Of a DNA stretch of 50,407 bases, positions 27,819-43,044 are shown piece after piece (positions within the stretch are counted from its first letter, which is position 1; every line of letters begins with the position of its first letter). The stretch comes from Rhodocyclaceae bacterium. GTDB taxonomy: Bacteria; Pseudomonadota; Gammaproteobacteria; Burkholderiales; Rhodocyclaceae. The translations under genes were made by a program, and so were the position numbers. The notes beneath the pieces are model-generated. The model saw only the letters and a program-made list of their open reading frames with translations. It searched no databases and had not been told where the DNA came from. The stretch is taken from the NCBI GenBank assembly GCA_026415155.1, contig JAOAHQ010000027.1:1-50407 (forward strand). Direction: 5' to 3'.

Positions 27819-29219
27819 ATGGACTTCGCCCCGCACATCACGCTCGCCGTCGCCGATTGGCTGCGCCAACTCGATGCGCCCGGCGCGCCGGCCGTGTGCG
27901 AGATCGCGCCGCCCGAATCGCCGGGCGTGCTCATTGCTGCTCTCGCCGCGCTCGCGGCCGAAGCGCTCGCGCGCGAGCGCACGCTTCTCATCGTCAGCGC
28001 CGACGATGGCCTCTTGCCCGAGCTTTCGAACGCGCTCGATCTGCGGCTGCGCCCCTTGTGCCTCGTGTTGCCCGGCGCCGAATACGCCGGCCGCATCGCG
28101 CTGCGCGCGACCTTGTCGCTCCTCAAAAGCCGCCTGGCGCGCGATGGCGAAGACAGCAGCGGCCCGGCCTGGGCCTCCCAGCGCGAACGCTTGGCGCATG
28201 AAGAGGCCCTCTGGCGCGCTTCTCTTGCCTGGAGCGCGCGCGGACTGGACCGCGAAGCGCCGCCGGCTGGCATCGGCCGGCTCTTTCCGGTCATCATCGG
28301 CCCTTGGAGCGTCGCGGAACGCCTCGCCGCCCCGGCCGACTGGGTCATTCTGATCCAGACGGAACGGCTGCCCGAACGGTTGCGCGCCCCTTGGCCTGGC
28401 GCCGCCCGCACGCTCTTCATCGGCCCGACGGCCTGGCGCGGCGCAAGCCAGCTCGCGCCCAACTGGGAGGCCTTGCGCGAAGCAGCCGAGCTCGAGGTGC
28501 TCGGCCAGGAGCTCGCCGAAATGGAGCTTGAACTTGCCACGGCGCAAGGGGAGCTCGCCGCCTTCGGGGCGCGCTACCAAAAGCTCGTCGCCTGGCGCAT
28601 CGCCGAGCTCGACCGCCTCGAGGCCGAGCTCGCGAAACTGCGCGCCGAACGCGCCCCAGAGGATGCTGCACTCGCCGCGGCCGCCGAGGCGGCGCATGCG
28701 CGCGCCGAGGCTTCGCGCCGCGAGCGCGAGGCCTATGAGCGGCGGGAAGAAGCGGCCTCGGCGCGCTTTGCGCCGAGCGTCGATCTCAAGAAGCGTTTCC
28801 GGCAACTGGCGCAGAAGATCCATCCCGACCGCGCCAAAGACGAACGAGAACGCGCCTGGCGCACACAGCTGATGACGGAAGCCAACCGCGCCTATCGCGA
28901 GGGCGATGCGGCGGCGCTCGAAGAGGTCTTCGCACTCTGGCGCGAAGGACAAGGGGCCGTCCCGTCAGCGCCGAGCGCCGGCCCGCGGCTCACCGATAGC
29001 GCGCTGGCGCGGCAGGCGGCGCGGATGCGCGCGCGCATCGCCGCGATCGCCGCCGAACTCGACCGGCTCTATGGCTCGAAGCTCTACGAACTCTTCGCTG
29101 CCGCTCGCGTCGCCGCGCGGCAGGGGCGCGATCTGCTCGCCGAGATGGCCGCCCGGCTCGATGGCGAGATCATGGCGGCCCAGGCCGAGCTTGAGCGCCT
29201 CGCCGCCGCGCAAAGCTAG
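27819..29219 (+). CDS. coiled-coil protein with internal J domain, function unknown
   Basis: 466 aa from the ATG at 27819. Residues 1-220 form an alpha/beta region without a motif I recognise (it contains RTLLIVSADDGLLPEL and GRLFPVIIGPWSVAERL). A long Ala/Glu/Arg-rich coiled coil follows (about 225-310), then a J-domain-like segment, LKKRFRQLAQKIHPDRAKDE, with the HPD tripeptide at about 335, and a second helical region to the C terminus. Such a protein could recruit DnaK to a cytoplasmic target. The linker after the J domain (GQGAVPSAPSAGPR) is encoded by a degenerate copy of the 24-bp repeat. Its stop overlaps that of the convergent hydrolase gene. Confidence 0.8.
   Translation: MDFAPHITLAVADWLRQLDAPGAPAVCEIAPPESPGVLIAALAALAAEALARERTLLIVSADDGLLPELSNALDLRLRPLCLVLPGAEYAGRIALRATLSLLKSRLARDGEDSSGPAWASQRERLAHEEALWRASLAWSARGLDREAPPAGIGRLFPVIIGPWSVAERLAAPADWVILIQTERLPERLRAPWPGAARTLFIGPTAWRGASQLAPNWEALREAAELEVLGQELAEMELELATAQGELAAFGARYQKLVAWRIAELDRLEAELAKLRAERAPEDAALAAAAEAAHARAEASRREREAYERREEAASARFAPSVDLKKRFRQLAQKIHPDRAKDERERAWRTQLMTEANRAYREGDAAALEEVFALWREGQGAVPSAPSAGPRLTDSALARQAARMRARIAAIAAELDRLYGSKLYELFAAARVAARQGRDLLAEMAARLDGEIMAAQAELERLAAAQS
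28957..28975 (+). repeat. degenerate copy of the 24-bp repeat inside a CDS
   Basis: GCCGTCCCGTCAGCGCCGA matches the first 19 positions of the repeat with one change, and lies in a Pro/Ala/Ser linker after the J domain. Chance similarity in GC-rich DNA is possible. Confidence 0.45.
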
Positions 29220-30097
29220 AGCGTGATCTCGAGCCCTTCCTGGGCAAGCAGGATCTCGCAGCCGAAATCTGGGTGGCGCGCCAGGGCCTCATTGAAGACC
29301 CGCTCGAGATCGTCGTCGCTCCTCGTCGGTTCGTGATGGGTGCAAATGAGCCTTTTCGCGCCGACGCGCTTGGCAAGCTCGATCGCGCTATCGAAGGTGC
29401 CGTGCCCCCAGCCGCGCTTGTGCGGATATTCTTCGCTCGTGTAGGCGGAATCGACGATCAGCAAATCCACCGCGCCGATGGCGGCATCGAGCTCGGCCTG
29501 GCGCTGCTCGATCGCCGCCTGGTATTCGTCATAACCTTCTTCGCCAGGCGAATAGATGTTGTAGTGCGGCTCGTGATCGCCGGTGAAGAAAAGCGACTTG
29601 CCATTGCATTCGATGCGGTAGCCAAGGTCGGGCACCGGATGATTCATGAGCACCGGCGTCACCGCCGCCTCGCCCACCGTCACCGGCACGCCGACGGAGA
29701 GCGTTTCATACTCGATGCGCGCCTTGAGCTCGGCCTCGCGAATCGGGAAATAGCTAAACTGCAACTGTACCTGCATGACATGCTCGATGCCCCGCTGGGC
29801 AATGAGATCGAAGGCGCCATAGAGGCGGATCGTGTTGCCGGGGATGAAAATCGGGATGAAGAAGGGCAGGCCCTGGATGTGATCCCAGTGCGTATGGGTG
29901 ATGAAGATGTGGGCCGTGACTGGCAGGTGCGCAAGCAAGGATTGCGCAAGCGGGAAGATGCCGGTGCCGGCATCGAGGACGATCAGCGCGTCGTCATCCC
30001 CCCTCACTTCGATGCAGGTCGTGTTGCCGCCATAGCGCACGGTGCGCGGCCCCGGCACGGCAATCGAGCCGCGCACGCCCCACAGTCTCACTTTCAT
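29216..30097 (-). CDS. MBL-fold metallo-hydrolase
   Basis: 293 aa. The metal site is THTHWDHIQGLPFF (HxHxDH), with later ligands in MNHPVPDLGYRIE, GDHEPHYN and ICTHHEPTRSDDD. The overall pattern (KVRLWGVRGSIAVPGP at the start) fits the class II cAMP phosphodiesterase/RNase Z-like branch, which cleaves phosphodiesters. The true substrate (cyclic nucleotide, RNA or other) cannot be told from sequence. It lies 3 bp after the HDOD gene, so the two are likely co-transcribed. Confidence 0.88.
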   Translation of the reverse strand: MKVRLWGVRGSIAVPGPRTVRYGGNTTCIEVRGDDDALIVLDAGTGIFPLAQSLLAHLPVTAHIFITHTHWDHIQGLPFFIPIFIPGNTIRLYGAFDLIAQRGIEHVMQVQLQFSYFPIREAELKARIEYETLSVGVPVTVGEAAVTPVLMNHPVPDLGYRIECNGKSLFFTGDHEPHYNIYSPGEEGYDEYQAAIEQRQAELDAAIGAVDLLIVDSAYTSEEYPHKRGWGHGTFDSAIELAKRVGAKRLICTHHEPTRSDDDLERVFNEALARHPDFGCEILLAQEGLEITL

Positions 30098-30100
30098 GCT

Positions 30101-30973
30101 TCACCTCTCGGTACCGATTTGCGCGAAGGATTGCGCATCGGCGAGGATTTTCTCGAGATCGCCCACCTTGGCGATCACGGACTCGATCTCACCGCCGAAG
30201 CGCGCCGGCATCTGAGAAAGCTCTTCTTCGCGCCAGGGATTGCCAGCATCGCCAAAGGCTTGCCGGCGGCAGATCATGTCGGCCATGCGCAGGCAGTCCA
30301 TCATCGCCGAGGGCGCCGCCGCCGGATTGTGATGATCGCGGATGCATTCGACGAGCGGCTCGGCGAACTGCCACTTCTTGGCGAGCAGCGCGCCGACGTA
30401 AGCATGATCGGCGCCAATGGTTTCCTGCTCGGCGATGTGGAGGGGTTTATCGAAGTCGACGGCGATCGCGAGCGACTTCATGAATTCGATGGATAGGAAC
30501 TGGGTGAATACGACCTTGCCGAAGTCGTGCAACAGACCGGCGATGTAGCAGTCCATCGGATCGGCCTCACCGCGTGCAAACTTTTCACAAAGGAGGCGCG
30601 CCACGAAGGCCACCGTCAGCGAATGCAGAAGATACTTCTGGATGTCGAAGCCCGTCGTCGAAAAGCGTGGCAGGATGCCGACGGCGGCGAAAGAAAGCGC
30701 GAGGTTCTTGATCGTGTTGATGCCGAGATAGACGACCGACTGGGCCACCGAGGTGATCTTGTTCGGCAGGCCGTAGTAGGCCGAGTTGATGACGCGCAGG
30801 ATCTTCACCGTCATCACCGGATCCTTCTCGATGACGCCGACGAGATCCTTGGGCAGGCAATCGACGTTGCGCGTCATCTCGAGAATGGCTTGCACGCTCT
30901 TCGGAAAGGCCGGCATGCGCTCGACCGCCGTGGTCAGCTTGCGTTCGAGTTCCGGAGTCAGCTGAGAAGACAT
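30101..30973 (-). CDS. HDOD domain signalling protein
   Basis: 290 aa, a single HDOD domain over about 15-220 (MPAFPKSVQAILEMTRNVDC, VINSAYYGLPNKITSVAQSV, YIAGLLHDFGKVVF). HDOD proteins are HD-like but generally lack hydrolase activity; they act as signalling or scaffold proteins, often with c-di-GMP pathways. It is co-oriented with the hydrolase downstream and 57 bp after the TauD-like gene. Confidence 0.9.
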   Translation of the reverse strand: MSSQLTPELERKLTTAVERMPAFPKSVQAILEMTRNVDCLPKDLVGVIEKDPVMTVKILRVINSAYYGLPNKITSVAQSVVYLGINTIKNLALSFAAVGILPRFSTTGFDIQKYLLHSLTVAFVARLLCEKFARGEADPMDCYIAGLLHDFGKVVFTQFLSIEFMKSLAIAVDFDKPLHIAEQETIGADHAYVGALLAKKWQFAEPLVECIRDHHNPAAAPSAMMDCLRMADMICRRQAFGDAGNPWREEELSQMPARFGGEIESVIAKVGDLEKILADAQSFAQIGTER

Positions 30974-31030: not shown

Positions 31031-31915
31031 TCAGGCAGATGCCACGCGCTCGTAATAGCGCGCGCGGTAGAGCAAGCGGCGCTTTGCTGGCGTTTCGGTA
31101 AAGCCGCTGCGATCGTGCAGCACGTTGTTGCAGACGAGCCCCATGCCGGGTTCCAGCCGCCCTTTGAGCGTCCAGGGGGTGGGCTTGGCCAGCAGGCGTT
31201 CGAGCGCGGCGCGCGCAGCGGCGGTCGCCGCATCCTCCTTCCAGGCAATGCTCACGGTGCGCGCGGTGTAACGCATGTGCAGCGTGCCATCCGGGTTGAT
31301 GGAAAACACCGGCCCGGCTTGCGCTGGGCGCGCCACGCCTGCTTCGTCCAGGCGCGGCGGAATGGTCATCGCATCGGCGGCAGACAGCGCGCGGATGTAA
31401 TCGGGATTCTCATCGCGCAACAGCACATAGGCAATCTCGTGATCGAGCAGCTGGTTCTCGCCGCCTGCCGCCGCGCTTTGCACGCAGTGGAGCAAGAGGC
31501 TGCGAATCGTGCGTTCGGGCGCGTTGTAGTAACCGTCGGTGTGCCAGCGGATCGGCTTGTCGGTATAAGGGATGAAATCGCGCCGCTCGCCGCGCGCTTC
31601 GGCACCGATGACGGAGAGCGGCGAGATGCCGTCTTGATCTGTGAGCCAGTGGCCATCGAGCGTCTTCAAGCCAAGCTGCTCGCCTAAGCGGCGGGGAATC
31701 TCCTTGTCCGGATCGCTGCCGGTCTTGCCGACGGAGATCGCCATGTTGCAGCGGGCGACCAGGCCGATGAGCGAGTTTCGCTCGGCGGGTTTGAGCTCGC
31801 GCGGATCGTCGAGCATGACCATGATGTCCTCGCAGCGGCGCGGCGCGGTATCGAGCTTTTCCTCGCGCCAGCGCGCATAGGCGGCGGGATCGGCGAGATC
31901 GAAGGGGCCGGGCAT
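31031..31915 (-). CDS. TauD/TfdA-like Fe(II)/2-oxoglutarate dioxygenase
   Basis: 294 aa from the ATG at 31915. The 2-His-1-Asp iron site reads RWHTDGYYNAPERTIRSLLL (HxD, about residue 127) with the distal His in NNVLHDRSGF (about 270), and the 2-oxoglutarate Arg is probably in RRLLYRARYYE. TauD-type enzymes hydroxylate taurine or other sulfonates and release sulfite, while other members act on very different substrates. It sits 10 bp after an unknown 202-aa gene and in the same run as the DsrC paralogue and Cas6-like gene, so a sulfur-linked substrate is tempting but unproven. Confidence 0.82.
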   Translation of the reverse strand: MPGPFDLADPAAYARWREEKLDTAPRRCEDIMVMLDDPRELKPAERNSLIGLVARCNMAISVGKTGSDPDKEIPRRLGEQLGLKTLDGHWLTDQDGISPLSVIGAEARGERRDFIPYTDKPIRWHTDGYYNAPERTIRSLLLHCVQSAAAGGENQLLDHEIAYVLLRDENPDYIRALSAADAMTIPPRLDEAGVARPAQAGPVFSINPDGTLHMRYTARTVSIAWKEDAATAAARAALERLLAKPTPWTLKGRLEPGMGLVCNNVLHDRSGFTETPAKRRLLYRARYYERVASA

Positions 31916-31925
31916 GGGCTTTTCC

Positions 31926-32534
31926 TCAGTCGATCGAACCGCGCACATCCTGGCGGCGCTCGCTTTTCGCCTGTTCGGGATGGAAAAGCCCGGCGAGCGT
32001 CTTTTCGAGCATCTTGAGGGATTCGGGCGCTTCGATCTCCATCGCCTGATCGATGACCCACAGCTTGTCCTTCTCGGGCAGCACCTCGGCGAGACAAGCG
32101 GCAAAGTAACGCTTGAAACCGAAATCCGGGCCCTTCTCGTCATAGCCGAATTCGGCATAGTCCGCCGCGCGGCGGTTGAAGAGATCGATGAAATGCCGCT
32201 GCGACTCGCCAGGCACGGCTTCGCCGAGCAGCATGATGTTGTTCTCCTCGACGAAGCGCGCCAGATGCTTGGCAAGCGCTGTCGTGAATTCGACGCGCGC
32301 CGCCTCATCGAGCTCGCGATAGGCGACGCGGTCGGCGCAGACGGCCAGAAAGGCGAGATACTCGCAGACGAAATCGAAATAGGGCCGGCCCGGATCGATG
32401 TCGTAGTCGGCCTTGCGCATGCGCTTGATCGACTCGAGCACGAGCTTCCAGGCGAGCACGGCCACCACCGAGGCGAGCGTGGCCGGTGAGCGCTGGCCCT
32501 GGGTGTGGAAACGGGTCTTAAGACGAATCGCCAT
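31926..32534 (-). CDS. conserved-looking 202-aa protein, function unknown
   Basis: 202 aa from the ATG at 32534 (MAIRLKTRFHTQGQRSP). I do not recognise the family. It is predicted soluble and mostly helical, with a hydrophobic stretch ASVVAVLAWKLVLESIKRM near 20-40 and YFDFVCEYLAFLAVCADRV near 55-75, and an acidic/basic C terminus (EQAKSERRQDVRGSID). It lies between the DsrC paralogue and the dioxygenase. The gap ahead of it (32535-32593) contains the 24-bp repeat. Confidence 0.75.
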   Translation of the reverse strand: MAIRLKTRFHTQGQRSPATLASVVAVLAWKLVLESIKRMRKADYDIDPGRPYFDFVCEYLAFLAVCADRVAYRELDEAARVEFTTALAKHLARFVEENNIMLLGEAVPGESQRHFIDLFNRRAADYAEFGYDEKGPDFGFKRYFAACLAEVLPEKDKLWVIDQAMEIEAPESLKMLEKTLAGLFHPEQAKSERRQDVRGSID

Positions 32535-32542
32535 GGCGTTTA

Positions 32543-32566
32543 GCCGTCCCGCCAGCGCCGACTTTC
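32543..32566 (+). repeat. 24-bp dispersed repeat, copy f
   Basis: Perfect copy on the plus strand, in the gap between the DsrC paralogue and the 202-aa gene, therefore antisense to both. Confidence 0.85.
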
Positions 32567-32593
32567 GCCGGCACAGGCAGGACACCGCGGGCT

Positions 32594-32932
32594 TTAGTAG
32601 CCGCCCTTGCCGTAGGGCTGCGGCAAGCCGGCGATGCGGCAGCCCTGCTTGGCCGCGCCGCCATCGGGGAACAGTTCGAACATGAGCTTGTTGTCGGCCT
32701 CGGGCATGATCCCTTCCTCCTGCAAGCCCTTGATCAGGTTGCGCAGATTGGGCGTATGACCATCCTCCTGGTATTTCTGGCGCAGGTAGTTGATGATTTT
32801 CCAGTGCTGCTCGGTGAGCGTGATGCCCTCTTTTTCGGCGAAGGCATGCACGGCCGCCTCGCTGAAATCCGGCTCCAGCAGATAGCCGTATTCATCGGTT
32901 TCTTTTTCTTCGCCATTGATGACGATGCTCAT
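32594..32932 (-). CDS. DsrC/TusE-family protein lacking the terminal cysteine
   Basis: 112 aa from the ATG at 32932, behind a strong AAGGAGG 5 nt away. The fold is clearly DsrC-like (GEEKETDEYGYLLEPDFSEA, LTEQHWKIINYLRQKYQEDG, KLMFELFPDGGAAKQGCRIA). The C-terminal arm keeps only the upstream cysteine (CysB position, QGCRIAGLPQP); the penultimate cysteine found in canonical DsrC (PTGCV at 38242) is replaced by Lys in PYGKGGY. True DsrC uses both Cys to form a trisulfide, and TusE keeps the terminal one, so this CysB-only arm cannot do normal DsrC chemistry. It may be regulatory. Confidence 0.93.
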   Translation of the reverse strand: MSIVINGEEKETDEYGYLLEPDFSEAAVHAFAEKEGITLTEQHWKIINYLRQKYQEDGHTPNLRNLIKGLQEEGIMPEADNKLMFELFPDGGAAKQGCRIAGLPQPYGKGGY

Positions 32933-32963
32933 GGGATCCTCCTTGTTTTGATGATGGTTCGAG

Positions 32964-33578
32964 TCAATCGAGTAGGGTGCCTGACTTATGCGGCACGAAC
33001 ACGCCGCAGCCGCGCTTGCGTTCTTGCCCCAGTCCGCGGCGCTGGATGAGGAGATTCGCCTCTTCATCGAGATCGAGCAGCATGAGGCTGAAACCCGACA
33101 GAAGCCCCGCGGCCGTGCGCATCTGCTGCGCCTTGCCGCACAGCAGGCGTGGCGAAAGGCCGAGGGAGGCGAGTTCAGCCCGGCAGGCTTCATGGAAGGC
33201 GGCCTCGTCGAGCGGTGCCCTGCCGGCGCTGCCATAGCAGACGAATTTGGCATAGAGCACCGGCACCGCCTTGAGCGGGCGCACCGTCGCTTCGCCCACC
33301 AAAAGCTGCGCCTCACCGACCTGTAGGACGGTACCCGTCAAGGCCCGCGCCGCTTCGACGCATTCGACCGGCAGCCGCAACGCGAGGCGCGCGCGGTGGG
33401 AGAGATACCAGCAGCCGTCTCCTGGACTCAAGCCGGAGAGCGGATGCACCGCCGCCTCGGCTTCGGCTTCGAGCCACGGCAACACGCCAGCGATCGCCTG
33501 CCAGAGCGCATCGGCATGATCCTGCGGCACGCGCTCGCCAGAGAGCGCGAAATGCACATCGACGAATTCAGGGCTCAT
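32964..33578 (-). CDS. Cas6/Cmx6-like RAMP protein without a CRISPR locus
   Basis: 204 aa from the ATG at 33578, overlapping the preceding gene by 11 bp. It resembles the Cas6 of the I-MYXAN subtype (Cmx6): FVDVHFALSGERVPQDHADA at the start, a mid-protein block SHRARLALRLPVECVEAARA, and the glycine-rich RAMP loop GLGQERKRGCGVFVPHKSG at the C terminus. A candidate catalytic His lies in PQDHADALW (about 24). Cas6 cleaves CRISPR precursor RNA, but no repeat array or other cas gene is present here, and its neighbours are sulfur-related. I infer an RNA-binding or RNA-cleaving protein repurposed to this locus. Confidence 0.75.
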   Translation of the reverse strand: MSPEFVDVHFALSGERVPQDHADALWQAIAGVLPWLEAEAEAAVHPLSGLSPGDGCWYLSHRARLALRLPVECVEAARALTGTVLQVGEAQLLVGEATVRPLKAVPVLYAKFVCYGSAGRAPLDEAAFHEACRAELASLGLSPRLLCGKAQQMRTAAGLLSGFSLMLLDLDEEANLLIQRRGLGQERKRGCGVFVPHKSGTLLD

Positions 33579-33822
33579 CGCAGCAGTGCCCTGCCTCATC
33601 ATTGGCGGCATCGAGCTGACGGCGCGCCCAGGTGCCCATCGTCTCGGCCCAACGTGCAGCCGTCACGGGATCGATGTCGAAGATCGTGAAGCGGCGGTGT
33701 TCGCGGATCCTGAGCCGCAGCATCGGCATGCCGCCGGCGGCGAACACCACCTCTTGCAATTCGATCTCCTGGTTGCCCAAAGGCACCCGAAACTTGTCCA
33801 GACTGGTAATTTTGTCGTCCAC
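33568..33822 (-). CDS. 84-aa conserved-looking protein, first gene of the accessory block
   Basis: 84 aa starting at GTG 33822. Family not recognised. Sequence MDDKITSLDKFRVPLGNQEI, then a beta-rich core (RLRIREHRRFTIFDIDPVTA) and a helical tail ending CCDEP with a Cys pair. It is the promoter-proximal gene of the minus-strand block (84-aa, Cas6-like, DsrC-like, 202-aa, TauD-like). Its start is only 18 bp from the repeat element at 33841, so any promoter must lie within or beyond that element. Confidence 0.75.
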   Translation of the reverse strand: MDDKITSLDKFRVPLGNQEIELQEVVFAAGGMPMLRLRIREHRRFTIFDIDPVTAARWAETMGTWARRQLDAANDEAGHCCDEP

Positions 33823-33840
33823 CCGTGCGCCTGCCTTGCC

Positions 33841-34056
33841 TTGAACCCAGATTGTCCATTAGACCGGGCTTGCGAGCGAAGATGAGGCAAAACCGCCTTG
33901 ACAGCGCCCTACGCGGCGGCTTGCGGGCTGCGGACGGGCGCTGCCTGGCCACGCTCCTCGCCCATAGGCCCCGCTATGGGCTCGTCGCGCGGCCCGCCAT
34001 CGCCTCGCCCTCGCCTGCGCAATCCGCTCGCGTTCCAATGGACAATCTGGGTTGAA
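33841..34056 (-). mobile_element. MITE-like repeat, copy 2 (complete)
   Basis: 216 bp bounded by 20-bp imperfect inverted repeats, TTGAACCCAGATTGTCCATT and, on the other strand, TTCAACCCAGATTGTCCATT (19/20). It is inverted relative to copy 1 at the window start. Internally it keeps the stem GCCCATAG/CTATGGGC and an outer GGCCGCGC/GCGTGGCC. It contains no ORF of note, and no target-site duplication is obvious. It sits exactly between the divergent dsr operon and the accessory block. Confidence 0.8.
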
Positions 34057-34293
34057 AGTCATTTGCAAATGGTGTCAGACTATCGCATCGCAAGCCCCTT
34101 AACGACCATCACCGGTTCGGGCAAGAGCCGCATACTCCTTTCGGGTAGGTTCGACTAACCCCACAAAAGGGGCTGATCTACCTGCCGGGGGTATGGCGTG
34201 CCGAATCGAGCTCGCCAGATAATTACGCGAGATTCGGGATTGGACGCGCGAGGCGCGGACGGTTCCCCCAACAGCCACGTAGAGGAGACATCA
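34057..34293 (+). promoter_or_regulatory. dsrA upstream region
   Basis: 237 bp between the repeat element and dsrA, with no gene. It contains CCCC-ACAAAA-GGGG at 34159-34172, and a 7-bp inverted repeat CCGAATC/GATTCGG at 34201-34207 and 34231-34237 flanking a -10-like GATAAT (34218-34223), a candidate operator-promoter. No matching -35 box is clear, which suits an activated promoter. A strong AGAGGAGA site precedes the dsrA start. Identification of the promoter is inference. Confidence 0.4.
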
Positions 34294-35592
34294 ATGGCCA
34301 AACAGCTTCACCCGACCCCCATGCTCGACCAACTCGAGACCGGTCCCTGGCCGAGCTTCGTGACGGGTCTCAAGCGCCTTGCCAAGGACAAGGATTACGT
34401 CGTCGATCTGCTCGGCCACCTCGAGCACTCCTACGAGACCCGCAAGGGCTATTGGAAGGGGGGCACGGTTGGCGTGTTCGGTTATGGCGGCGGCGTCATT
34501 CCGCGCTTTACCGAGATCAAGGACGAAAACGGCGAGCCGGTCTTCAAGGATGCCGCCGAATTCCACACGCTGCGCATCATGCCGCCTCCTGGCATGCACT
34601 ACGATACCGACACGCTGCGCAAGTTCTGCGACATCTGGGAAAAGTATGGCTCCGGCCTCATCGCCTTCCACGGCCAGTCTGGCGACATCATGTTCCAGGG
34701 CTGCACGACCGAGAACGTGCAAAAAGCCTGGGATGAGATCAACGAAATGGGCTTCGACATGGGCGGTGCGGGCCCGGCTGTGCGTACCGCGATGTCCTGC
34801 GTCGGCGCCGCGCGCTGCGAGCAGTCCTGCTATGACGAGGCGCTCGCCCACCACAAGATCATCAACCAGTTCCTCGACGACATCCACCGTCCGGCCCTGC
34901 CCTACAAGTTCAAGTTCAAGTTCTCGGGCTGCGGCAACGACTGCATGAACTCGATCCAGCGCGCCGACATGGCCGTCATCGGCACCTGGCGCGACAACAT
35001 GAGCACCGACGAAGAGCTCGCCAAGAAGTGGTTTGCCAAGCACGGCATCAACGAGCTCATCAACGACGTCATCAACATGTGCCCGACGCGCGCGATCCAG
35101 CTCAAGGACACCAAGGATGTGCGCAAAGACGCGCATATCTCGTCGGTCGCCATCAATGACAGCCAGTCGCTCGAGATCGACAACAAGGATTGCGTGCGCT
35201 GCATGCACTGCATCAACGTCATGACCGGCGCGCTGGCCCCAGGCCAGGACAAGGGCGCGACGATCCTCGTCGGCGGCCACAGCCACCTCAAGATCGGCGC
35301 CACGATGGGCACCGTGATCATCCCCTTCATGTCGCTCAAGAAGGAAGAGGATTACGATCAGCTCGTCGATCTCGCGCAGCGCATCGTCGATTTCTTCGCC
35401 GAAAACGCCCTCGAGCACGAGCGCATCGGCGAGACGATCGAGCGCATCGGCCTTGTCAACTTCCTCGAAGGCATCGAAGTCGACATCGACCCCAACATGG
35501 TCAACAACCCGCGCATGAACCCCTACGTGCGCACCGACGGTTGGGACGAGGAAGTCGCCAAGATCAACGCCAAGAAAAAAGCGGCGGCCTAA
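34294..35592 (+). CDS. dsrA: reverse dissimilatory sulfite reductase, alpha subunit
   Basis: 432 aa from the ATG at 34294 (AGAGGAGA upstream). The siroheme-[4Fe-4S] ligands are in AMSCVGAARCEQSCYDEA and FSGCGNDCMNSI, and a C-terminal ferredoxin site is CPTRAIQL with KDCVRCMHCINVM. With DsrB it forms the cytoplasmic alpha2beta2 enzyme that oxidises the sulfur carried by DsrC to sulfite. The presence of dsrEFH and dsrL in the same operon marks the oxidative (reverse) type. First gene of the plus-strand dsr operon. Confidence 0.98.
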   Translation: MAKQLHPTPMLDQLETGPWPSFVTGLKRLAKDKDYVVDLLGHLEHSYETRKGYWKGGTVGVFGYGGGVIPRFTEIKDENGEPVFKDAAEFHTLRIMPPPGMHYDTDTLRKFCDIWEKYGSGLIAFHGQSGDIMFQGCTTENVQKAWDEINEMGFDMGGAGPAVRTAMSCVGAARCEQSCYDEALAHHKIINQFLDDIHRPALPYKFKFKFSGCGNDCMNSIQRADMAVIGTWRDNMSTDEELAKKWFAKHGINELINDVINMCPTRAIQLKDTKDVRKDAHISSVAINDSQSLEIDNKDCVRCMHCINVMTGALAPGQDKGATILVGGHSHLKIGATMGTVIIPFMSLKKEEDYDQLVDLAQRIVDFFAENALEHERIGETIERIGLVNFLEGIEVDIDPNMVNNPRMNPYVRTDGWDEEVAKINAKKKAAA

Positions 35593-35704: not shown

Positions 35705-36778
35705 ATGGCTCAACCACAGATGCGCAAGCCGGTCGAGTACTTCCTCGACAACAAGAAGTTCCTCCACCCCAAGCTCGCCGCCAACTACGGCAACTGGAAA
35801 TATCACGATCGTCCGCGCCCCGGCGTGCTGCATCACGTCTCGAAGACCGGCGACGAAGTATGGACCGTGCGCGCCGGCACGCAGCGCCAGATGGACGTCT
35901 ATACGATCCGCAAACTGTGCGACATTGCCGACCAGTTCGCCGAGGGGCGTGTCCGTTTCACGATTCGCTCCAACATCGAATTCATCGTTTCCGATGAAAA
36001 GAAAGTGGCCCCGCTGATCGAAGAGCTCGAAAAGAACGGCTTCCCGGTCGGCGGCACGGGCAATTCCGTCTCGATGGTCGCCCACACGCAAGGCTGGCTG
36101 CACTGCGACATCCCGGGCACCGACGCTTCGGGCGTGGTCAAGGCGATGATGGACGAGCTCTATGAAGAGTTCAAGAACGAAGAGATGCCCAACCGCGTGC
36201 GCCTGTCCACCTCCTGCTGCGAGATCAACTGCGGCGGCCAGGCCGACATCGCCGTCGTGATCCAGCACACCAAGCCGCCGAAGATCAACCACGACCTCGT
36301 CGCCAACGTCTGCGAACGGCCGGCCGTCGTGGCGCGCTGCCCCGTCGCCGCGATCCGTCCCGCTCTCGTCAATGGCAAGCCGACGCTCGAAGTCGATGAG
36401 AAGAAGTGCGTCTGCTGCGGCGCCTGCTATCCCCCCTGCCCGCCGATGCAGATCAACGACCCCGAGCATTCCAAGCTCGCCATCTGGGTGGGCGGCAAGA
36501 ACTCCAACGCGCGCTCTAAGCCGACCTTCCACAAGATGGTCGCCGCCGGGCTGCCCAACAACCCGCCGCGCTGGCCGGAAGTCAATGCCGTCGTCAAGAA
36601 GATCCTCATGACCTACAAGCAGGATGCCCGTCCCTGGGAGCGCATGGCCGACTGGATCGACCGCATCGGCTGGCCGCGCTTCTTCGAAAAGACGGGGCTG
36701 CCCTTCACGAAGTACATGATCGACGACTGGCGCGGCAGCCGTTACAACCTCAACGCCTCGGCCCACATCCGCTTCTGA
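35705..36778 (+). CDS. dsrB: reverse dissimilatory sulfite reductase, beta subunit
   Basis: 357 aa. The Fe-S/siroheme ligands are STSCCEINCGGQADIA and the motif around NVCERPAVVARCPV; the ferredoxin cluster is KKCVCCGACYPPCPPMQI. GGTGNSVSMVAHTQGW contacts siroheme. It completes the DsrAB catalytic site, with the DsrC C-terminal arm inserting between the subunits. CTCGGAGACAATCC precedes the start. Confidence 0.98.
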   Translation: MAQPQMRKPVEYFLDNKKFLHPKLAANYGNWKYHDRPRPGVLHHVSKTGDEVWTVRAGTQRQMDVYTIRKLCDIADQFAEGRVRFTIRSNIEFIVSDEKKVAPLIEELEKNGFPVGGTGNSVSMVAHTQGWLHCDIPGTDASGVVKAMMDELYEEFKNEEMPNRVRLSTSCCEINCGGQADIAVVIQHTKPPKINHDLVANVCERPAVVARCPVAAIRPALVNGKPTLEVDEKKCVCCGACYPPCPPMQINDPEHSKLAIWVGGKNSNARSKPTFHKMVAAGLPNNPPRWPEVNAVVKKILMTYKQDARPWERMADWIDRIGWPRFFEKTGLPFTKYMIDDWRGSRYNLNASAHIRF

Positions 36779-36792
36779 AGGACCTCGCCGAC

Positions 36793-37185
36793 ATGAAATT
36801 TGCCATTCTGGTCAACGAAGGCCCCTCCACGCACAAGGCCTCCGACACCGCCTACCAGTTCGCCAAGGCGGCGCTCGCCAAGGGGCATGAGATCTTCCGC
36901 GTGTTCTTCTATCACGACGGTGTCAACAACGCCACGCGGCTCACCACGCCGCCGCAGGACGACCGTCACATCGTCAATCGCTGGTCGAAGCTCGCCGAAG
37001 AGCACAAGCTCGACATGGTCGTCTGCGTGGCCGCCGCGCAGCGCCGCGGCATCGTCGATGAAGGCGAGATGAAGCGAAACGGCAAGGACGCCACCAACCT
37101 GGCGCCGGGCTTTCGCATCTCCGGCTTGGGTCAGCTGATCGAAGCCGGCATCCAGGCCGACCGTCTGGTCGTGTTCGGCGACTGA
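36793..37185 (+). CDS. dsrE: sulfurtransferase subunit DsrE
   Basis: 130 aa, DsrE fold (MKFAILVNEGPSTHKASDTA). The active-site Cys is in DMVVCVAAAQRRGI (about residue 78), the residue that carries sulfane sulfur and donates to DsrC. Forms the DsrE2F2H2 hexamer with the two following gene products, in the cytoplasm. TusD of the tRNA thiolation pathway is the homologue. Confidence 0.97.
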   Translation: MKFAILVNEGPSTHKASDTAYQFAKAALAKGHEIFRVFFYHDGVNNATRLTTPPQDDRHIVNRWSKLAEEHKLDMVVCVAAAQRRGIVDEGEMKRNGKDATNLAPGFRISGLGQLIEAGIQADRLVVFGD

Positions 37186-37200
37186 TCGGGAGACGAAGCG

Positions 37201-37563
37201 ATGAGCGTCAAGAAATTCATGTTCGTCAACCGCAAGGCGCCCTACGGCACGATCTACGCCTGGGAAGCGCTCGAAGTCGTGCTGATCGCCGCCGCCTTCG
37301 AGCAGGATGTCTCGCTGTGCTTCCTCGACGATGGCGTTTTCCAGCTCAAGAAGGGGCATAACACCAAAGCCATCGAGACCAAGGCGTTCGAGAAGACCTG
37401 GGGCGCGCTCGAAGACTACGACATCACCAAGCTCTACGTCGATGCCGAATCGCTCGCCGAGCGCGGCCTCACGGCCGATGATCTCGCCGTGCCCGTCGAA
37501 GTGCTCTCCCGCGCCGAAATCGGCAAGCTGATGGAAGAGCAGGACGTCCTGCTGTCGTTCTGA
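37201..37563 (+). CDS. dsrF: sulfurtransferase subunit DsrF
   Basis: 120 aa (MSVKKFMFVNRKAPYGTIYA), TusC-like fold. The FLDDGVFQLKKGHN region is conserved. It has a structural role in the DsrEFH hexamer and no catalytic Cys is expected. It starts 15 bp after dsrE, with GGGAGACGAAGCG as the ribosome site. Confidence 0.96.
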   Translation: MSVKKFMFVNRKAPYGTIYAWEALEVVLIAAAFEQDVSLCFLDDGVFQLKKGHNTKAIETKAFEKTWGALEDYDITKLYVDAESLAERGLTADDLAVPVEVLSRAEIGKLMEEQDVLLSF

Positions 37564-37575
37564 GGAGCGCAAATC

Positions 37576-37869
37576 ATGCTGCACATCATCAACAAGTCCC
37601 CCTATGAGCGCCCGGCGCTCGACTCGGCGCTCAAGACCGGCGAGGGCGCGATCCTCCTCATCGAAGACGGCGTCTATGCCGCCGTCAAGGGCGGCGCGGC
37701 CGAGGCGAAGATCAAGGCCGCCCAGGGCAAGTTCAAGGTTTATGCCCTGCAGGCCGATCTCGAAGCGCGCGGCATGATCGACCGTGTTACCGAGGGCGTC
37801 ACCGTCGTCGATTATGGCGGCTTCGTCGATCTCGTCGCCGAGTACAAAACCAACCAATCCTGGCTCTGA
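37576..37869 (+). CDS. dsrH: sulfurtransferase subunit DsrH (cysteine-free)
   Basis: 97 aa, TusB-like: MLHIINKSPYERPALDSALK, GAILLIEDGVYAAVKGGA, VVDYGGFVDLVAEY. It contains no cysteine at all; the position that I recall as Cys20 in purple sulfur bacteria is Ala in LDSALKTG. Since DsrE is the sulfur carrier that matters for transfer to DsrC, the subunit is probably functional as a scaffold. Confidence 0.94.
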   Translation: MLHIINKSPYERPALDSALKTGEGAILLIEDGVYAAVKGGAAEAKIKAAQGKFKVYALQADLEARGMIDRVTEGVTVVDYGGFVDLVAEYKTNQSWL

Positions 37870-37909
37870 TTCCCGCGAGCTAACCTGCCATTCTTTAGGA
37901 GACACACAC

Positions 37910-38242
37910 ATGGCTATCGAAGTTAACGGCAAGACCTACGAAACCGACGAAGAGGGCTACCTGATCAACCTCTCCGACTGGAACGAGGAAGTCGCGAACT
38001 ACCTCGCCCAGCAAGAAGGCATCACGATGACCGAGCAGCACTGGGAGGTCATCAATTTCCTGCGCGACTACTACAACGAGTTTCAGATCGCCCCGGCCGT
38101 GCGCGTGCTGACCAAGGCGATCGGCAAGAAGCTCGGCCCCGAGAAGGGCAACAGCCAGTATCTCTACGAGCTGTTCCCCTACGGCCCGGCCAAGCAGGCT
38201 TGCAAGATCGCCGGCCTGCCGAAGCCGACCGGCTGCGTCTGA
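37910..38242 (+). CDS. dsrC: sulfur carrier DsrC
   Basis: 110 aa from the ATG at 37910 (TTTAGGAGACACACAC upstream). Canonical C-terminal arm KQACKIAGLPKPTGCV with both cysteines (CysB and the penultimate CysA). It accepts sulfur from DsrEFH, presents it to DsrAB and leaves as the trisulfide that DsrMKJOP or DsrL acts on. A CysB-only paralogue is encoded at 32594-32932. Confidence 0.98.
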   Translation: MAIEVNGKTYETDEEGYLINLSDWNEEVANYLAQQEGITMTEQHWEVINFLRDYYNEFQIAPAVRVLTKAIGKKLGPEKGNSQYLYELFPYGPAKQACKIAGLPKPTGCV

Positions 38243-38253
38243 TTCCAGCGCCT

Positions 38254-38293
38254 GGCGCGGCAGGACAGGCGCTGATGCCGTCCTGCCAGCGCC
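38254..38293 (+). other. hairpin between dsrC and dsrM
   Basis: GGCGCGGCAGGAC (38254-38266) pairs with GTCCTGCCAGCGCC (38280-38293), one bulge, 13-nt loop, 11 bp after the dsrC stop. The right arm is the start of a 24-bp repeat copy (38277-38300). No U-run follows, so it is not a classical terminator. It may stabilise the abundant dsrC message. Confidence 0.6.
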
Positions 38294-38300
38294 GAGATTC
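38277..38300 (+). repeat. 24-bp dispersed repeat, copy g
   Basis: Copy with changes near the 3' end (TCCTGCCAGCGCCGAGATTC). It forms the right arm of the dsrC-dsrM hairpin, with a partial inverted partner upstream. Confidence 0.75.
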
Positions 38301-38406
38301 AAGATAAACGACAGGAAGTCCCGATCGAGGCTTCCGCGAGGAGGATTGCGCTCTTGATTCGCGTAACGCCACCATCGAGAAGCGAACTTTCCAGGGTCCC
38401 GCGTCC

Positions 38407-39129
38407 ATGACCACTTTTTTCGCGCTCCTGTTTTACCTGGCCTGTGCCGTGTTCGTCATCGGCCTCGGTTACAAGCTCTACGATTTCGCCCGCACGCCGG
38501 CGCCGCTGTCGATTCCGACCACGCCGGCGCCAACCACGACCTCCGGCGTGGTCTTCCGCATGGCCCGCGAGGTGGTGCTGTTCGAAAGCCTCTTCAAAGG
38601 CAATCTGTGGATCTGGCTGTTCGGCTGGCTCTTTCACATGGGCCTCTTTCTCGTCTTGGTGCGCCATCTGCGCTACTTCATCGCCGAGGTGCCCGCCTGG
38701 CTCGTCTTCCTGCAACCCTTTGGTAAATACGCAGGTTTCATGATGGTGGCGGGCCTGGCGGGACTGTGGGTGCGCCGGCTCTTCGTCGAGCGCATCCGCT
38801 ACATCTCGACGCTCTCCGATCACCTGTGGCTTGCCCTGCTCCTCACGATCGGCCTCACGGGGCTTGGCATGACCTTCCTGATGCACGTCGATGTCGTCGC
38901 CGTCAAGGCCTTCTTCCTCGGCCTGATGCACTTCGAGATGAATCCCCTGCCGGCGCATCCGGGACTCTTCATCCATCTCTTGCTCGTCGCGCTCCTGATG
39001 ATCCTCTTTCCGTTCAGCAAGCTCTTGCATGCCCCGGGCGTCTTCTTCAGCCCGACCCGCAACATGGCCGACAACCCGCGCGAGAAGCGTCACCTCGCGC
39101 CGTGGGCCGCCCAGCTCGAGAAGAACTGA
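38407..39129 (+). CDS. dsrM: DsrM, cytochrome b membrane subunit
   Basis: 240 aa with five or so hydrophobic helices (LFYLACAVFVIGLGYKLYDF, WIWLFGWLFHMGLFLVLV, GLFIHLLLVALLMILFPF among them) and conserved His residues in FGWLFHMG and HLRY, as in NarI-like di-heme b proteins. Part of the DsrMKJOP complex linking quinones, periplasmic cytochrome and DsrC. The 164-bp gap before it holds the dsrC hairpin and nothing else I can identify. Confidence 0.95.
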   Translation: MTTFFALLFYLACAVFVIGLGYKLYDFARTPAPLSIPTTPAPTTTSGVVFRMAREVVLFESLFKGNLWIWLFGWLFHMGLFLVLVRHLRYFIAEVPAWLVFLQPFGKYAGFMMVAGLAGLWVRRLFVERIRYISTLSDHLWLALLLTIGLTGLGMTFLMHVDVVAVKAFFLGLMHFEMNPLPAHPGLFIHLLLVALLMILFPFSKLLHAPGVFFSPTRNMADNPREKRHLAPWAAQLEKN

Positions 39130-39135
39130 TCCATC

Positions 39136-40677
39136 ATGGCTGCTCCCGAATTCGAGATTCCGAAATTCCGCGAGTTCCCTACCGTGCCGCCCATTCGGGA
39201 AGGCGCGATGGCACACTCCAAGCCCTATGTCGCGAGCGACAAGATCCAGGAGGCCTTGGGTTTCCAGGGCAAGCTGGATGAAGACTGGCAGGTCACCCAC
39301 GACAAGGTGATCGCCAAGTTCGGCGAACTCTTGGGCAAGTACCGCTCGCTCAAGGTATTCATGGATAGCTGCGTTCATTGCGGCTCCTGCACCGACAAGT
39401 GCCACTACTTCATCGGCACGAATGATCCGAAGAACATGCCGGTGGCGCGCCAGGAGCTCATGCGCAGCGTCTATCGCCGCTATTTCACGCTGCCGGGCAA
39501 GCTCTTTCCCAAGCTGGTCGGCGCGCGCGATCTGACCAAGGACGTGCTCGACGAGTGGTTCAGCTACTTCTGGCAGTGCTCGGAATGCCGCCGCTGCTCG
39601 GTGTTCTGCCCCTATGGCATCGATACCGCCGAAGTAACGATGGCGGCGCGCCACATCCTCGACACCGTCGGCTACGGGCAGAAATACTCGAACGAAATCC
39701 TCGGCAAGGTCAATAAGATCGGCAACAACCTGGGGCTCCCTGGGCCGGCGCTCGAAGACACCTTGGCCGGCCTCGAAGAGGACGTCAAGGAAGATACGGG
39801 TGTTGCCGTGCGCTACCCGCTCGATGAGCAAGGCGCCGAGGTGCTGCTCGTCACGCCCTCGGCCGACTTCTTCGCCGAGCCGCACATCGAATCGCTGATC
39901 GGCTACGGCAAGGTCTTCCACGCCGCCGGCATTTCCTGGACGCTTTCTTCTTACGCTTCAGAGGCCGGCAACTTCGGCCTCTTCAACGGCAGCTACGAGA
40001 TGATGCGCAAAGTCGCGCTGCGCATCCGCCAGGCGGCCCTCGAGCTCGGCGTCAAGCGCATCGTCGTCGGCGAGTGCGGCCATGCCTGGCGCGTCGCCTA
40101 CGCGTTCTGGAACACGCTGACGGGCCTGGGCGCCGGCGGCCACGATCCTTTCTCGATCGAGCTGCAAAAACAGCTCGACCCGAAATACAAGCAGCCTTCG
40201 CACATCTGCGAATTCACCTGGGACCTGATTCAGCAGGGGCGTCTTAAGTTCGACAAGGAAGCCAACGATCACCGCATCATCACCTTCCACGACTCCTGCA
40301 ACGTCGCGCGCGCCTCGCGCATGGGCGATCGGCCCGGCGGCCAGTTCGACATCCCGCGCGCCATCATCAAGGCGGTCGCCAACAAGTTCGTCGACATGGA
40401 CGAGGCGACGATCCGCGAAGCGACCTTCTGCTGCGGCGGCGGCGGCGGCGTGCTGACCGATGAGCTCCTCGAGATGCGCGTCAAGGGCGCCTTCCCGCGC
40501 ATGGAGGCCTTAAAGCACGTGGTCGACAAGCATGGCGTCAATTTCATGGCGACGATCTGCGCGATCTGCAAGGCGCAATTCACGAAGGTTCTGCCCTACT
40601 ACGGGTTCAACATGCGGCTGGTGGGCGGCGTCCACCAGTTGGTCAGCACTGCGATTCGCTTAGGCGGCGAGCAGTAA
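39136..40677 (+). CDS. dsrK: DsrK, HdrD-like iron-sulfur subunit
   Basis: 513 aa. Two 4Fe-4S ferredoxin sites (SCVHCGSCTDKCHYF at about 75-90 and CSECRRCSVFCPYGID at about 150) precede CCG domains; ATFCCGGGGGVLTDEL and ATICAICKAQF are the catalytic-cluster ligands of the heterodisulfide-reductase type. It acts on the DsrC trisulfide/disulfide on the cytoplasmic face. The start lies 6 bp after dsrM. Confidence 0.97.
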   Translation: MAAPEFEIPKFREFPTVPPIREGAMAHSKPYVASDKIQEALGFQGKLDEDWQVTHDKVIAKFGELLGKYRSLKVFMDSCVHCGSCTDKCHYFIGTNDPKNMPVARQELMRSVYRRYFTLPGKLFPKLVGARDLTKDVLDEWFSYFWQCSECRRCSVFCPYGIDTAEVTMAARHILDTVGYGQKYSNEILGKVNKIGNNLGLPGPALEDTLAGLEEDVKEDTGVAVRYPLDEQGAEVLLVTPSADFFAEPHIESLIGYGKVFHAAGISWTLSSYASEAGNFGLFNGSYEMMRKVALRIRQAALELGVKRIVVGECGHAWRVAYAFWNTLTGLGAGGHDPFSIELQKQLDPKYKQPSHICEFTWDLIQQGRLKFDKEANDHRIITFHDSCNVARASRMGDRPGGQFDIPRAIIKAVANKFVDMDEATIREATFCCGGGGGVLTDELLEMRVKGAFPRMEALKHVVDKHGVNFMATICAICKAQFTKVLPYYGFNMRLVGGVHQLVSTAIRLGGEQ

Positions 40678-40707
40678 TCCCCCGACACTCAGACAACGGA
40701 GACGATG

Positions 40708-42672: not shown

Positions 42673-43044
42673 ATGAAAGCCGCCGCGCTCGCGCTGCTTC
42701 TGGCGCTTGCTTCGGCCGCCGCCTTGGCCGGCGCGCCGAAGCCGGCGCTCAAGATCGAGAACCCCGGCCAGTGCATCGCGCCCACCGAGGAGATGCGCAA
42801 GAACCACATGGAGATGCTCAAGCACCAGCGCGACCGCACTCTGCGCCAGGGCATCCGTGGCGAAAAGGCCAGTCTCAATGGCTGCATCGAGTGCCACGCC
42901 AGCAAGGCCACCGGCTCGGTGCTCGGCAAAGGCGGCTTCTGCCAGGAATGCCACGCCTACGCGGCGGTCAAGCTCGACTGCTGGGACTGCCATCAACCCA
43001 AGGCAGGCTTCAAACATGCCGGGGCCGTGGGAGTGAAACCATGA
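42673..43044 (+). CDS. dsrJ: DsrJ, periplasmic triheme cytochrome c
   Basis: 123 aa beginning directly after the dsrL stop (TAAATG). Signal peptide to about residue 20 (ALALLLALASAAALA). Three heme c sites: GCIECHASK, CQECHAY, CWDCHQPK. NPGQCIAP contributes the unusual Cys thought to ligate one heme. It is the periplasmic electron carrier of DsrMKJOP. Confidence 0.96.
   Translation: MKAAALALLLALASAAALAGAPKPALKIENPGQCIAPTEEMRKNHMEMLKHQRDRTLRQGIRGEKASLNGCIECHASKATGSVLGKGGFCQECHAYAAVKLDCWDCHQPKAGFKHAGAVGVKP

Follow-up and report, generated by a model that had tools for sequence, protein, structure and literature searches.

A conserved gene block encoding a Cas6-family protein and a DsrC paralogue beside the reverse dissimilatory sulfite reductase operon of a Rhodocyclaceae bacterium

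Described systems and composition of the locus

Sulfur oxidation by the reverse dissimilatory sulfite reductase (rDsr) pathway is widespread, and little is known of the control of sulfur flow in it. Here we describe a block of five genes beside the rDsr operon of a Rhodocyclaceae bacterium (assembly GCA_026415155.1, contig JAOAHQ010000027.1; this whole stretch of 50,407 nucleotides is called the window in the following). The block encodes a small DUF6967 protein, a protein of the Cas6 family (Cas6L), a paralogue of DsrC (DsrC2), an all-helical protein (P202), and a TauD-type dioxygenase. The block is a genuine unit, conserved in association with rDsr, and in the genome sets searched it was found only together with dsrA.

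The closest described system is that of dsrQ, named by Lenk et al. (2012) for a tauD-like gene divergent from dsr in sulfur oxidisers (as related in PMC7596348). According to the passages on dsrQ in that source, a tusA-like gene replaces tauD in some clusters, and the release of sulfite from sulfonates by DsrQ is reported as a speculation. The relevant passage of PMC6018796 lists DsrQ and DsrU in 2018 as of unknown function. The dioxygenase gene of the window fits dsrQ, previously named and uncharacterised, and DsrU may be one of the other genes of this operon. Our locus shares with the dsrQ system a gene of the TauD family that lies upstream of dsr in divergent orientation, whereas the dsrQ passages of PMC7596348 mention no Cas6 homologue, DUF6967, DsrC2 or P202.

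The Cas6/Cmx6 proteins of type I-B (I-MYXAN) CRISPR-Cas (8fcj, and the plasmid system of Synechocystis 6714) share with Cas6L the family, the length, a glycine-rich loop and residue R68; a histidine of 8fcj, which we take to belong to a CRISPR-associated transposon (CAST), also aligns with His45 of Cas6L. Cas6L differs from them in having no array and no cas3, cas5, cas7 or cas8 neighbours, in the residues W35, E125 and H197-K198, and in its overlap or shared frame with DUF6967. The portion of PMC11096372 on the type I-B operon of Synechocystis 6714 describes its rebuilding into a Cascade that contains Cas6b. DsrC2 shares with DsrC and TusE the superfamily and the KQ and GLPxPxG motifs of the C-terminal arm; unlike them it has lysine at the position of CysA, a variable CysB position, a GGY end, a GHTPNxRN segment and a fixed place in the operon. 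CysA is described as strictly conserved in DsrC sequences in the pertinent passage of PMC3397948, and Cys-free DsrC homologues are already known, outside the dsr operon, from the Solemya velum symbiont (passage in PMC4287430). Relay proteins of the TusA and rhodanese types occur inside the operon of relatives as alternatives to each other, TusA in a tandem two-domain form; the window contains neither. The PUR-repeat and Whirly domains, which bind single-stranded nucleic acid, may share with DUF6967 a predicted fold of four strands and a helix, with no detectable sequence similarity. The operon as such was not found described in the open-access literature, nor was any open-access paper on DUF6967; subscription journals lay outside this coverage, and the operon may be described there. 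So far as seen, it is undescribed beyond dsrQ.

The genes of the block and of the adjacent dsr operon are as follows (positions are those of the window).

33568 to 33822, minus strand: gene of the DUF6967 protein, 84 amino acids, GTG start (PF22295, 107.4 bits, cut-off 27)
32964 to 33578, minus strand: Cas6L, Cas6/Cmx6 family, 204 amino acids (PF09559 and TIGR02807, cas6_cmx6, over cut-off)
32594 to 32932, minus strand: DsrC2, DsrC paralogue with the C-terminal end GKGGY and Lys at the CysA position (PF04358, 108.1 bits, cut-off 24.9)
31926 to 32534, minus strand: P202, all-helical protein of 202 amino acids, no matching family
31031 to 31915, minus strand: dsrQ, TauD/TfdA-type Fe(II)/2-oxoglutarate dioxygenase, 294 amino acids (PF02668, 66.6 bits, cut-off 27)
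34294 to 35592, plus strand: dsrA, dissimilatory-type sulfite reductase alpha (TIGR02064, 517.5 bits, cut-off 392.85)
35705 to 43044, plus strand: dsrB, dsrE, dsrF, dsrC (37910-38242), dsrM, dsrK, dsrL-like and dsrJ (NCBIfam)

The block runs from 33822 to 31031 on the minus strand, away from dsrA on the plus strand. The genes of DUF6967 and Cas6L overlap by 11 bp, and a gap of 10 bp separates the genes of P202 and DsrQ. A first-pass annotation of this DNA had described five co-directional genes facing away from dsrA, with these two values and a Cas6-like product: all five open reading frames (ORFs) are present, both values are exact, and the Cas6 identity is borne out by the two profiles listed above. 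In the dsr operon of the window, dsrA, dsrB, TusD/DsrE, TusC/DsrF, DsrC and DsrK exceed their NCBIfam cut-offs; DsrM, DsrJ and DsrP score under the cut-offs of their models, which are named after sulfate reduction. The make-up of an oxidative rDsr operon is given by dsrAB, dsrE/dsrF and a putative dsrL, with dsrH and dsrO outside the scan. The name DsrL for 40705-42672 is our assumption from an NAD(P)-binding match, and the label 'oxidative' is likewise partly assumed.

Distribution, gene order and selection

A set of 150 related genomes, including that of the window, was searched by profile. dsrA was present in 49 of them, over cut-off in 45 and in fragments in four (G014, G019, G088, G104). 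DUF6967 was found in 48 genomes, Cas6 in 44 and P202 in 48, every positive lying within the 49 dsrA carriers, and none of the three occurred in the 101 genomes lacking dsrA. The P202 profile was built from the same loci, so that its presence there follows in part from the way it was made, and the information lies in its absence from the other 101 genomes. The one dsrA genome lacking both DUF6967 and P202 (G014) has dsrA fragments only, in an assembly of 560 contigs. In an even sample of the phylum (398 genomes, 53 of them dsrA carriers), Cas6 was found in five genomes and DUF6967 in ten, all within the dsrA carriers.

The surroundings were mapped in 48 genomes with profiles grown from the window proteins, yielding 49 loci (one genome, G012, is split into L069 and L078). 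The recurring order is dsrA, then divergently DUF6967, Cas6L, DsrC paralogue, P202 and DsrQ. The same order returns in other families of the order to which the window belongs, which argues against a chance arrangement. The first-pass annotation would have been contradicted by genes scattered in other genomes, or by a Cas6 regularly found with CRISPR arrays in place of sulfur genes: within this order the genes are not scattered, and all Cas6-positive genomes (44/44 of the 150, 5/5 of the 398) have dsrA.

A scan of GTDB r220 (one genome per species, 84,980 species) with the Cas6L alignment yielded 426 stretches, 413 of which encode a relative. The scan pattern ends in a PH motif that marks the dsr-linked group; the scan is therefore biased towards members of that group and is no evidence that the family is scarce in CRISPR loci. 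The best 80 of the 413 relatives were taken as a named set, which partly overlaps with the 150 genomes and includes Rhodocyclaceae, Sulfuritalea, Sulfurisoma, Sulfuricella, Sterolibacterium, Gallionellaceae, Hydrogenophilales, Hydrogenophaga and Thiobacillus. One member of the set, L121, belongs to the cultured Sulfurisoma sediminicola BSN1. In 76 of these best 80, DsrA is encoded upstream of Cas6L; in the remaining four (L126, L130, L146, L156) the contig breaks off within 1.7 kb.

In 11 chosen close pairs, each of the five proteins had a ratio of nonsynonymous to synonymous substitution rates (dN/dS) of less than 0.4; purifying selection acts on the five proteins in the pairs measured. After removal of the DsrA distance, the distances of the five proteins still intercorrelate (partial r 0.40-0.67, 36 loci), as expected for joint inheritance.

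Proteins of the block and what they may do

Cas6L scores 174.3 bits with PF09559 (cut-off 26.7) and 139.8 bits with TIGR02807 (cut-off 98.85), all 44 Cas6-positive genomes of the 150 exceed the PF09559 cut-off, and PADLOC Cas6 models match Cas6L (best E 8e-52). One solved relative was found, the type I-B Cas6 8fcj (E 1e-12). Seven plasmid relatives were found, all cyanobacterial, and in six of them cas3 adjoins cas6 in type I-MYXAN loci. Residues G182, G184, G190 and G192 in the glycine-rich loop, and R68, are invariant in the 44 dsr-linked proteins as well as in the seven plasmid relatives. The dsr group is marked by W35 (42/44), E125 (43/44) and H197 (43/44), the last as part of H197-K198. 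In a tree of the 44 Cas6L and the seven plasmid proteins, the 44 form one group if the tree is rooted on the seven; given this small outside sample and the lack of a support value, the grouping carries little weight. In the seventh plasmid relative, that of Gloeobacter morelensis (L180, 5974-8172), the Cas6/Cmx6 gene is followed by one hypothetical gene and then by a gene of the PAPS-reductase family, with no cas3 annotated nearby.

Position 45, which we take to be the usual place of the catalytic histidine of Cas6, is His in 31 of the 44 dsr-linked proteins, Leu in 11, Gln in one and Arg in one. It is not His in any of the seven plasmid relatives, and 8fcj aligns a His there. His45 was therefore dropped as proof of nuclease activity or of its loss.

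That Cas6L is an orphan CRISPR component which happens to lie beside dsr and serves the CRISPR systems of the genome in trans appears highly implausible. Annotation tools would label the protein Cas6, and the genome of the window does carry two cas1 genes, both on other contigs. Against this stands the fixed place beside dsrA across families. Exact array-like repeats (20 bases, spaced 48-90 bases) occur in none of 130 loci (the window, L031-L078 and L095-L175), whereas the same script was positive in two of seven short-flanked control loci. Among the 150 genomes, 69 have cas1, namely 23 of the 44 with Cas6L versus 46 of the 106 others, i.e. there is no association between Cas6L and cas1. A complete genome of one contig (G017) has Cas6L and no cas1. 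cas3, cas5, cas7 and cas8 are not among the mapped neighbours of Cas6L, where DUF6967, DsrC2, P202 and DsrQ recur instead. The related idea of a CRISPR remnant was rejected on the fixed place, the cas1 counts and the lack of exact repeats.

DsrC2 belongs to the DsrC/TusE/DsvC superfamily (TIGR03342, 89.7 bits, cut-off 53.5) and stays below the cut-off of the TusE equivalog model (69.7 against 191). The 100 DsrC homologues at the loci fall into three classes by their tails: TGC[VI] (49, normal DsrC), K[GA]GY (46, including DsrC2 of the window) and KGEH (5). The K[GA]GY class has Lys at the CysA position by definition, so that neither the window copy nor any of the other members has the conserved CysA of TusE and DsrC. 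At the CysB position it has Cys in 26 members, Ala in 10, Val in nine and Pro in one. The first-pass annotation had called this protein a CysB-only DsrC paralogue; the description holds for the window copy and fails for the group, and a mechanism built on CysB-only chemistry was rejected on the 20 of 46 members with Ala, Val or Pro. On the sequences compared, the constant feature is the Cys-free K[GA]GY tail. Columns that hardly vary in DsrC have in this class a mean conservation of 0.66 for the arm, against 0.46 for the core (arm and core divided at residue 87), and the class carries its own GHTPNxRN segment. Because the arm positions are kept and CysA is replaced by Lys, DsrC2 may dock rather than perform redox chemistry. 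The KGEH class is a third, Cys-free DsrC type in the same operon (L036, L040, L052, L062, L071).

The gaps between Cas6L and DsrC2 were inspected in 43 loci, and those between DsrC2 and P202 in 46. A tandem TusA with two CPxP motifs (19/19) was found in 19 of the 46 loci with a readable DsrC2-P202 gap, and a rhodanese in seven others; a Pfam check of two TusA and one rhodanese representatives agrees. In the named set (best 80 of 413), 49 loci have the tandem TusA, 14 the rhodanese, none both and 17 neither. This exclusive replacement is the best evidence for a role in sulfur relay. An earlier proposal of RNA-linked sulfur sensing or relay thus gains a link to relay proteins in relatives, which the locus of the window itself does not offer.

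The same observation bears on the possibility that the block is an RNA-aimed sulfur-transfer branch, e.g. for tRNA thiolation, in which Cas6L would pick the RNA, TusA or rhodanese would give the sulfur and DsrC2 would replace TusE. The intact Cys motifs of the tandem TusA, the rhodanese of the seven other loci and the membership of DsrC2 in the DsrC/TusE superfamily fit such a branch. We nevertheless regard it as distinctly unlikely, given Lys at the conserved CysA position, the want of any RNA-thiolase family among the Pfam and NCBIfam matches of the five window proteins, and a window locus devoid of TusA and rhodanese.

DsrQ was found in 42 of the 49 loci, and a TauD-family gene divergent from dsrA is present as in the described system. 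By the patterns that we assume for the Fe(II) ligands and the 2-oxoglutarate Arg of this family, 43 of 48 homologues match all three; the remaining five comprise four close variants and one protein (L073) whose C-terminal part is missing. Among solved structures, the single relative found is TmpA, a 2-trimethylaminoethylphosphonate hydroxylase (E 4e-8). DsrQ might be the working part of the block, freeing sulfite from sulfonates, with the other genes in support or regulation; TauD membership, the retained iron-ligand patterns and the speculation reported in PMC7596348 speak for this. The phosphonate substrate of TmpA speaks against it, as does the fact that DsrQ was not detected at the locus, the only place searched, in 6 of the 48 genomes (L035, L042, L044, L065, L071, L072), all of which keep DUF6967 and P202. 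Pfam and NCBIfam assign none of the other four proteins of the block to a sulfonate-uptake family. This account, too, seems quite improbable. P202 has no significant family in Pfam, NCBIfam or PADLOC and no sequence relative in these searches; its predicted model (predicted local distance difference test, pLDDT, 86) has no fold match in the PDB at E <= 0.001.

In three genomes (L053, L055, L060) DUF6967 and Cas6L share one open frame of 295-297 amino acids, which may encode a fused protein. The AlphaFold model of DUF6967 (pLDDT 91) is a four-stranded sheet followed by a long helix (b-b-b-b-a). In a Foldseek search with this model, Pur-alpha repeats from seven entries make up 18 of the 20 best chains, with probabilities of 0.92-1.00, E values of 0.21-0.97 and TM-scores by query of 0.46-0.58. 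PUR repeats bind single-stranded nucleic acid. At E values up to 10, 50 DUF6967 members matched 10 Pfam families, with no PUR family among them, and a sequence comparison with solved chains gave nine matches, none of them Pur-alpha. The predicted structure weakly suggests a PUR-repeat-like fold.

Outside the order of the window, five genomes carry DUF6967 and no Cas6L. The DsrQ homologue adjoins DUF6967 in all five, and dsrA lies within 2 kb in four and on another contig in the fifth, so that the link between DsrQ and DUF6967 is wider than Cas6L. In two of these loci the arrangement is dsrA, then divergently DsrQ, a small ORF, DUF6967 and a CysG-type sirohaem synthase. The small ORF (MAKLS...; L090 8201-8449, L092 8203-8424) has no Pfam match over cut-off.

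Such an arrangement favours our main rival explanation, the maturation or quality control of DsrAB. DsrC2 would here plug the DsrC channel during sirohaem or subunit assembly, DUF6967, P202 and Cas6L would be scaffolds that no longer use RNA, and DsrQ would modify a cofactor or protein. The retention of arm residues in the absence of CysA, the position of DUF6967 between DsrQ and the sirohaem synthase in the two genomes, and the loss of His45 from 13 of the 44 Cas6L would be in line with it. However, the invariant glycine-rich loop and R68 of Cas6 would not be expected if RNA binding had been lost, and CysG was not noted in the operon within the order of the window, though no search was aimed at it. 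On balance this explanation appears unlikely.

Proposed function and the search for an RNA target

We hypothesize that the block is an accessory operon of the oxidative rDsr pathway, which tunes rDsr to the sulfur supply through RNA. We assign this joint reading a probability of roughly one in three (0.35). Cas6L would be a hairpin-RNA-binding Cas6 taken from a type I-B-like CRISPR system, and would form an RNA-binding pair with DUF6967. Because about two thirds of the near-invariant arm positions are kept, with Lys in place of CysA, DsrC2 would probably mimic DsrC in docking, reading or filling a partner site of DsrC (DsrAB, DsrK or DsrEFH) and carrying no sulfur there. The TusA or rhodanese component, placed between Cas6L and DsrC2 in the relatives that have it, may report or supply sulfane sulfur, DsrQ would contribute a step dependent on oxygen and 2-oxoglutarate, and the assembled components would tune the expression or activity of rDsr to the sulfur supply via RNA. 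A further form of the proposal seems doubtful: Cas6L, taken from CRISPR and overlapping or fused with the PUR-like DUF6967, would bind RNA at the centre of a ribonucleoprotein, and this particle would link a sulfane-sulfur relay (tandem TusA or rhodanese, and DsrC2 as a DsrC mimic lacking CysA) to the expression of the sulfur-oxidation machinery.

Several observations weigh against the accessory-operon reading. In the phylum sample, 43 of the 53 dsrA carriers have neither DUF6967 nor Cas6, so that Dsr itself can do without the operon. Cas6L is missing in 4 of the 48 genomes (L039, L041, L057, L071), including the rest of those genomes, and the DsrC paralogue was not found within the block in at least two of the 48 (L056, L072). 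Among the best 80 of the 413 GTDB relatives, DUF6967 was undetected in five (L130, L135, L146, L158, L172) and the DsrC paralogue beside Cas6L was missing in five (L122, L124, L128, L135, L169). Furthermore, DUF6967 occurs with DsrQ and without Cas6L in the five genomes outside the order, its PUR match stands at E 0.21-0.97 with no support from sequence, the supposedly catalytic histidine is gone from 13 of 44 Cas6L, and the window's own locus lacks TusA and rhodanese. Finally, no RNA target was found in the two regions examined, namely the divergent region and the hairpin behind dsrC. The features concerned, and the neighbours beyond dsrQ, are as follows.

33823 to 34293, no strand: intergenic region of the divergent DUF6967 and dsrA genes, in which conserved blocks and imperfect palindromes occur (alignment of 18 genus-level regions)
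33843 to 34053, no strand: repeat resembling a miniature inverted-repeat transposable element (MITE), with terminal inverted repeats of 17-18 bp (second copy at 1-186)
30101 to 30973, minus strand: HDOD-domain protein gene, co-directional, 3' of the dioxygenase gene (PF08668; in 23 of the 49 analysed loci)
29216 to 30097, minus strand: gene of a hydrolase of the metallo-beta-lactamase (MBL) fold, co-directional, beyond the HDOD gene (PF12706; in 21 of the 49 analysed loci)

The imperfect palindromes of the divergent region are GACTATCGCATCGCAAG, CTACYCC-N-GGGTAG and TACCTGCCGGAGGTA. A conserved RNA structure in this region was rejected as a target of Cas6L, the consensus fold being weak (-9.4 kcal/mol over 519 columns, 18 regions). 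The blocks resemble DNA sites, and three loci without Cas6L (L039, L041, L057) retain them as well. From their sequence, blocks and palindromes are possible operator sites of a dsr regulator. The MITE-like repeat lies between DUF6967 and the conserved promoter blocks, has 46 matches in its own genome including itself, and is missing at this spot in 17 aligned relatives. Rfam gave no match on the window at gathering scores.

A hairpin resembling a repetitive extragenic palindromic (REP) element, with the 3' flank CAGCGCCGA[GC]TTT, follows dsrC at 38243-38310. It covaries, with a kept double change in six of nine pairs (15 sequences picked from the genus). The motif is also found at 271, 6547, 10795, 16031, 32553 and 46191, one copy lying between DsrC2 and P202, and the genome holds 161 + 155 matches with at most one mismatch versus 6 + 2 for a control. 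Folding z-scores after dsrC differ little between loci that have Cas6L (median -1.87, n=41) and those that lack it (-1.54, n=8). The hairpin was rejected as a specific target, since it belongs to a dispersed repeat and is found in genomes lacking Cas6L too.

Sulfur oxidisers carry a conserved helper operon beside their main genes, in which a Cas6-type protein without CRISPR genes is joined to sulfur-carrier-like proteins, and dsrQ, named in 2012, gains genomic partners that can be tested. If the proposed function is true, the operon would represent a non-immune use of a CRISPR protein and possibly an RNA layer in energy metabolism, i.e. an RNA-sulfur control circuit of lithotrophic growth on sulfur as an energy source.

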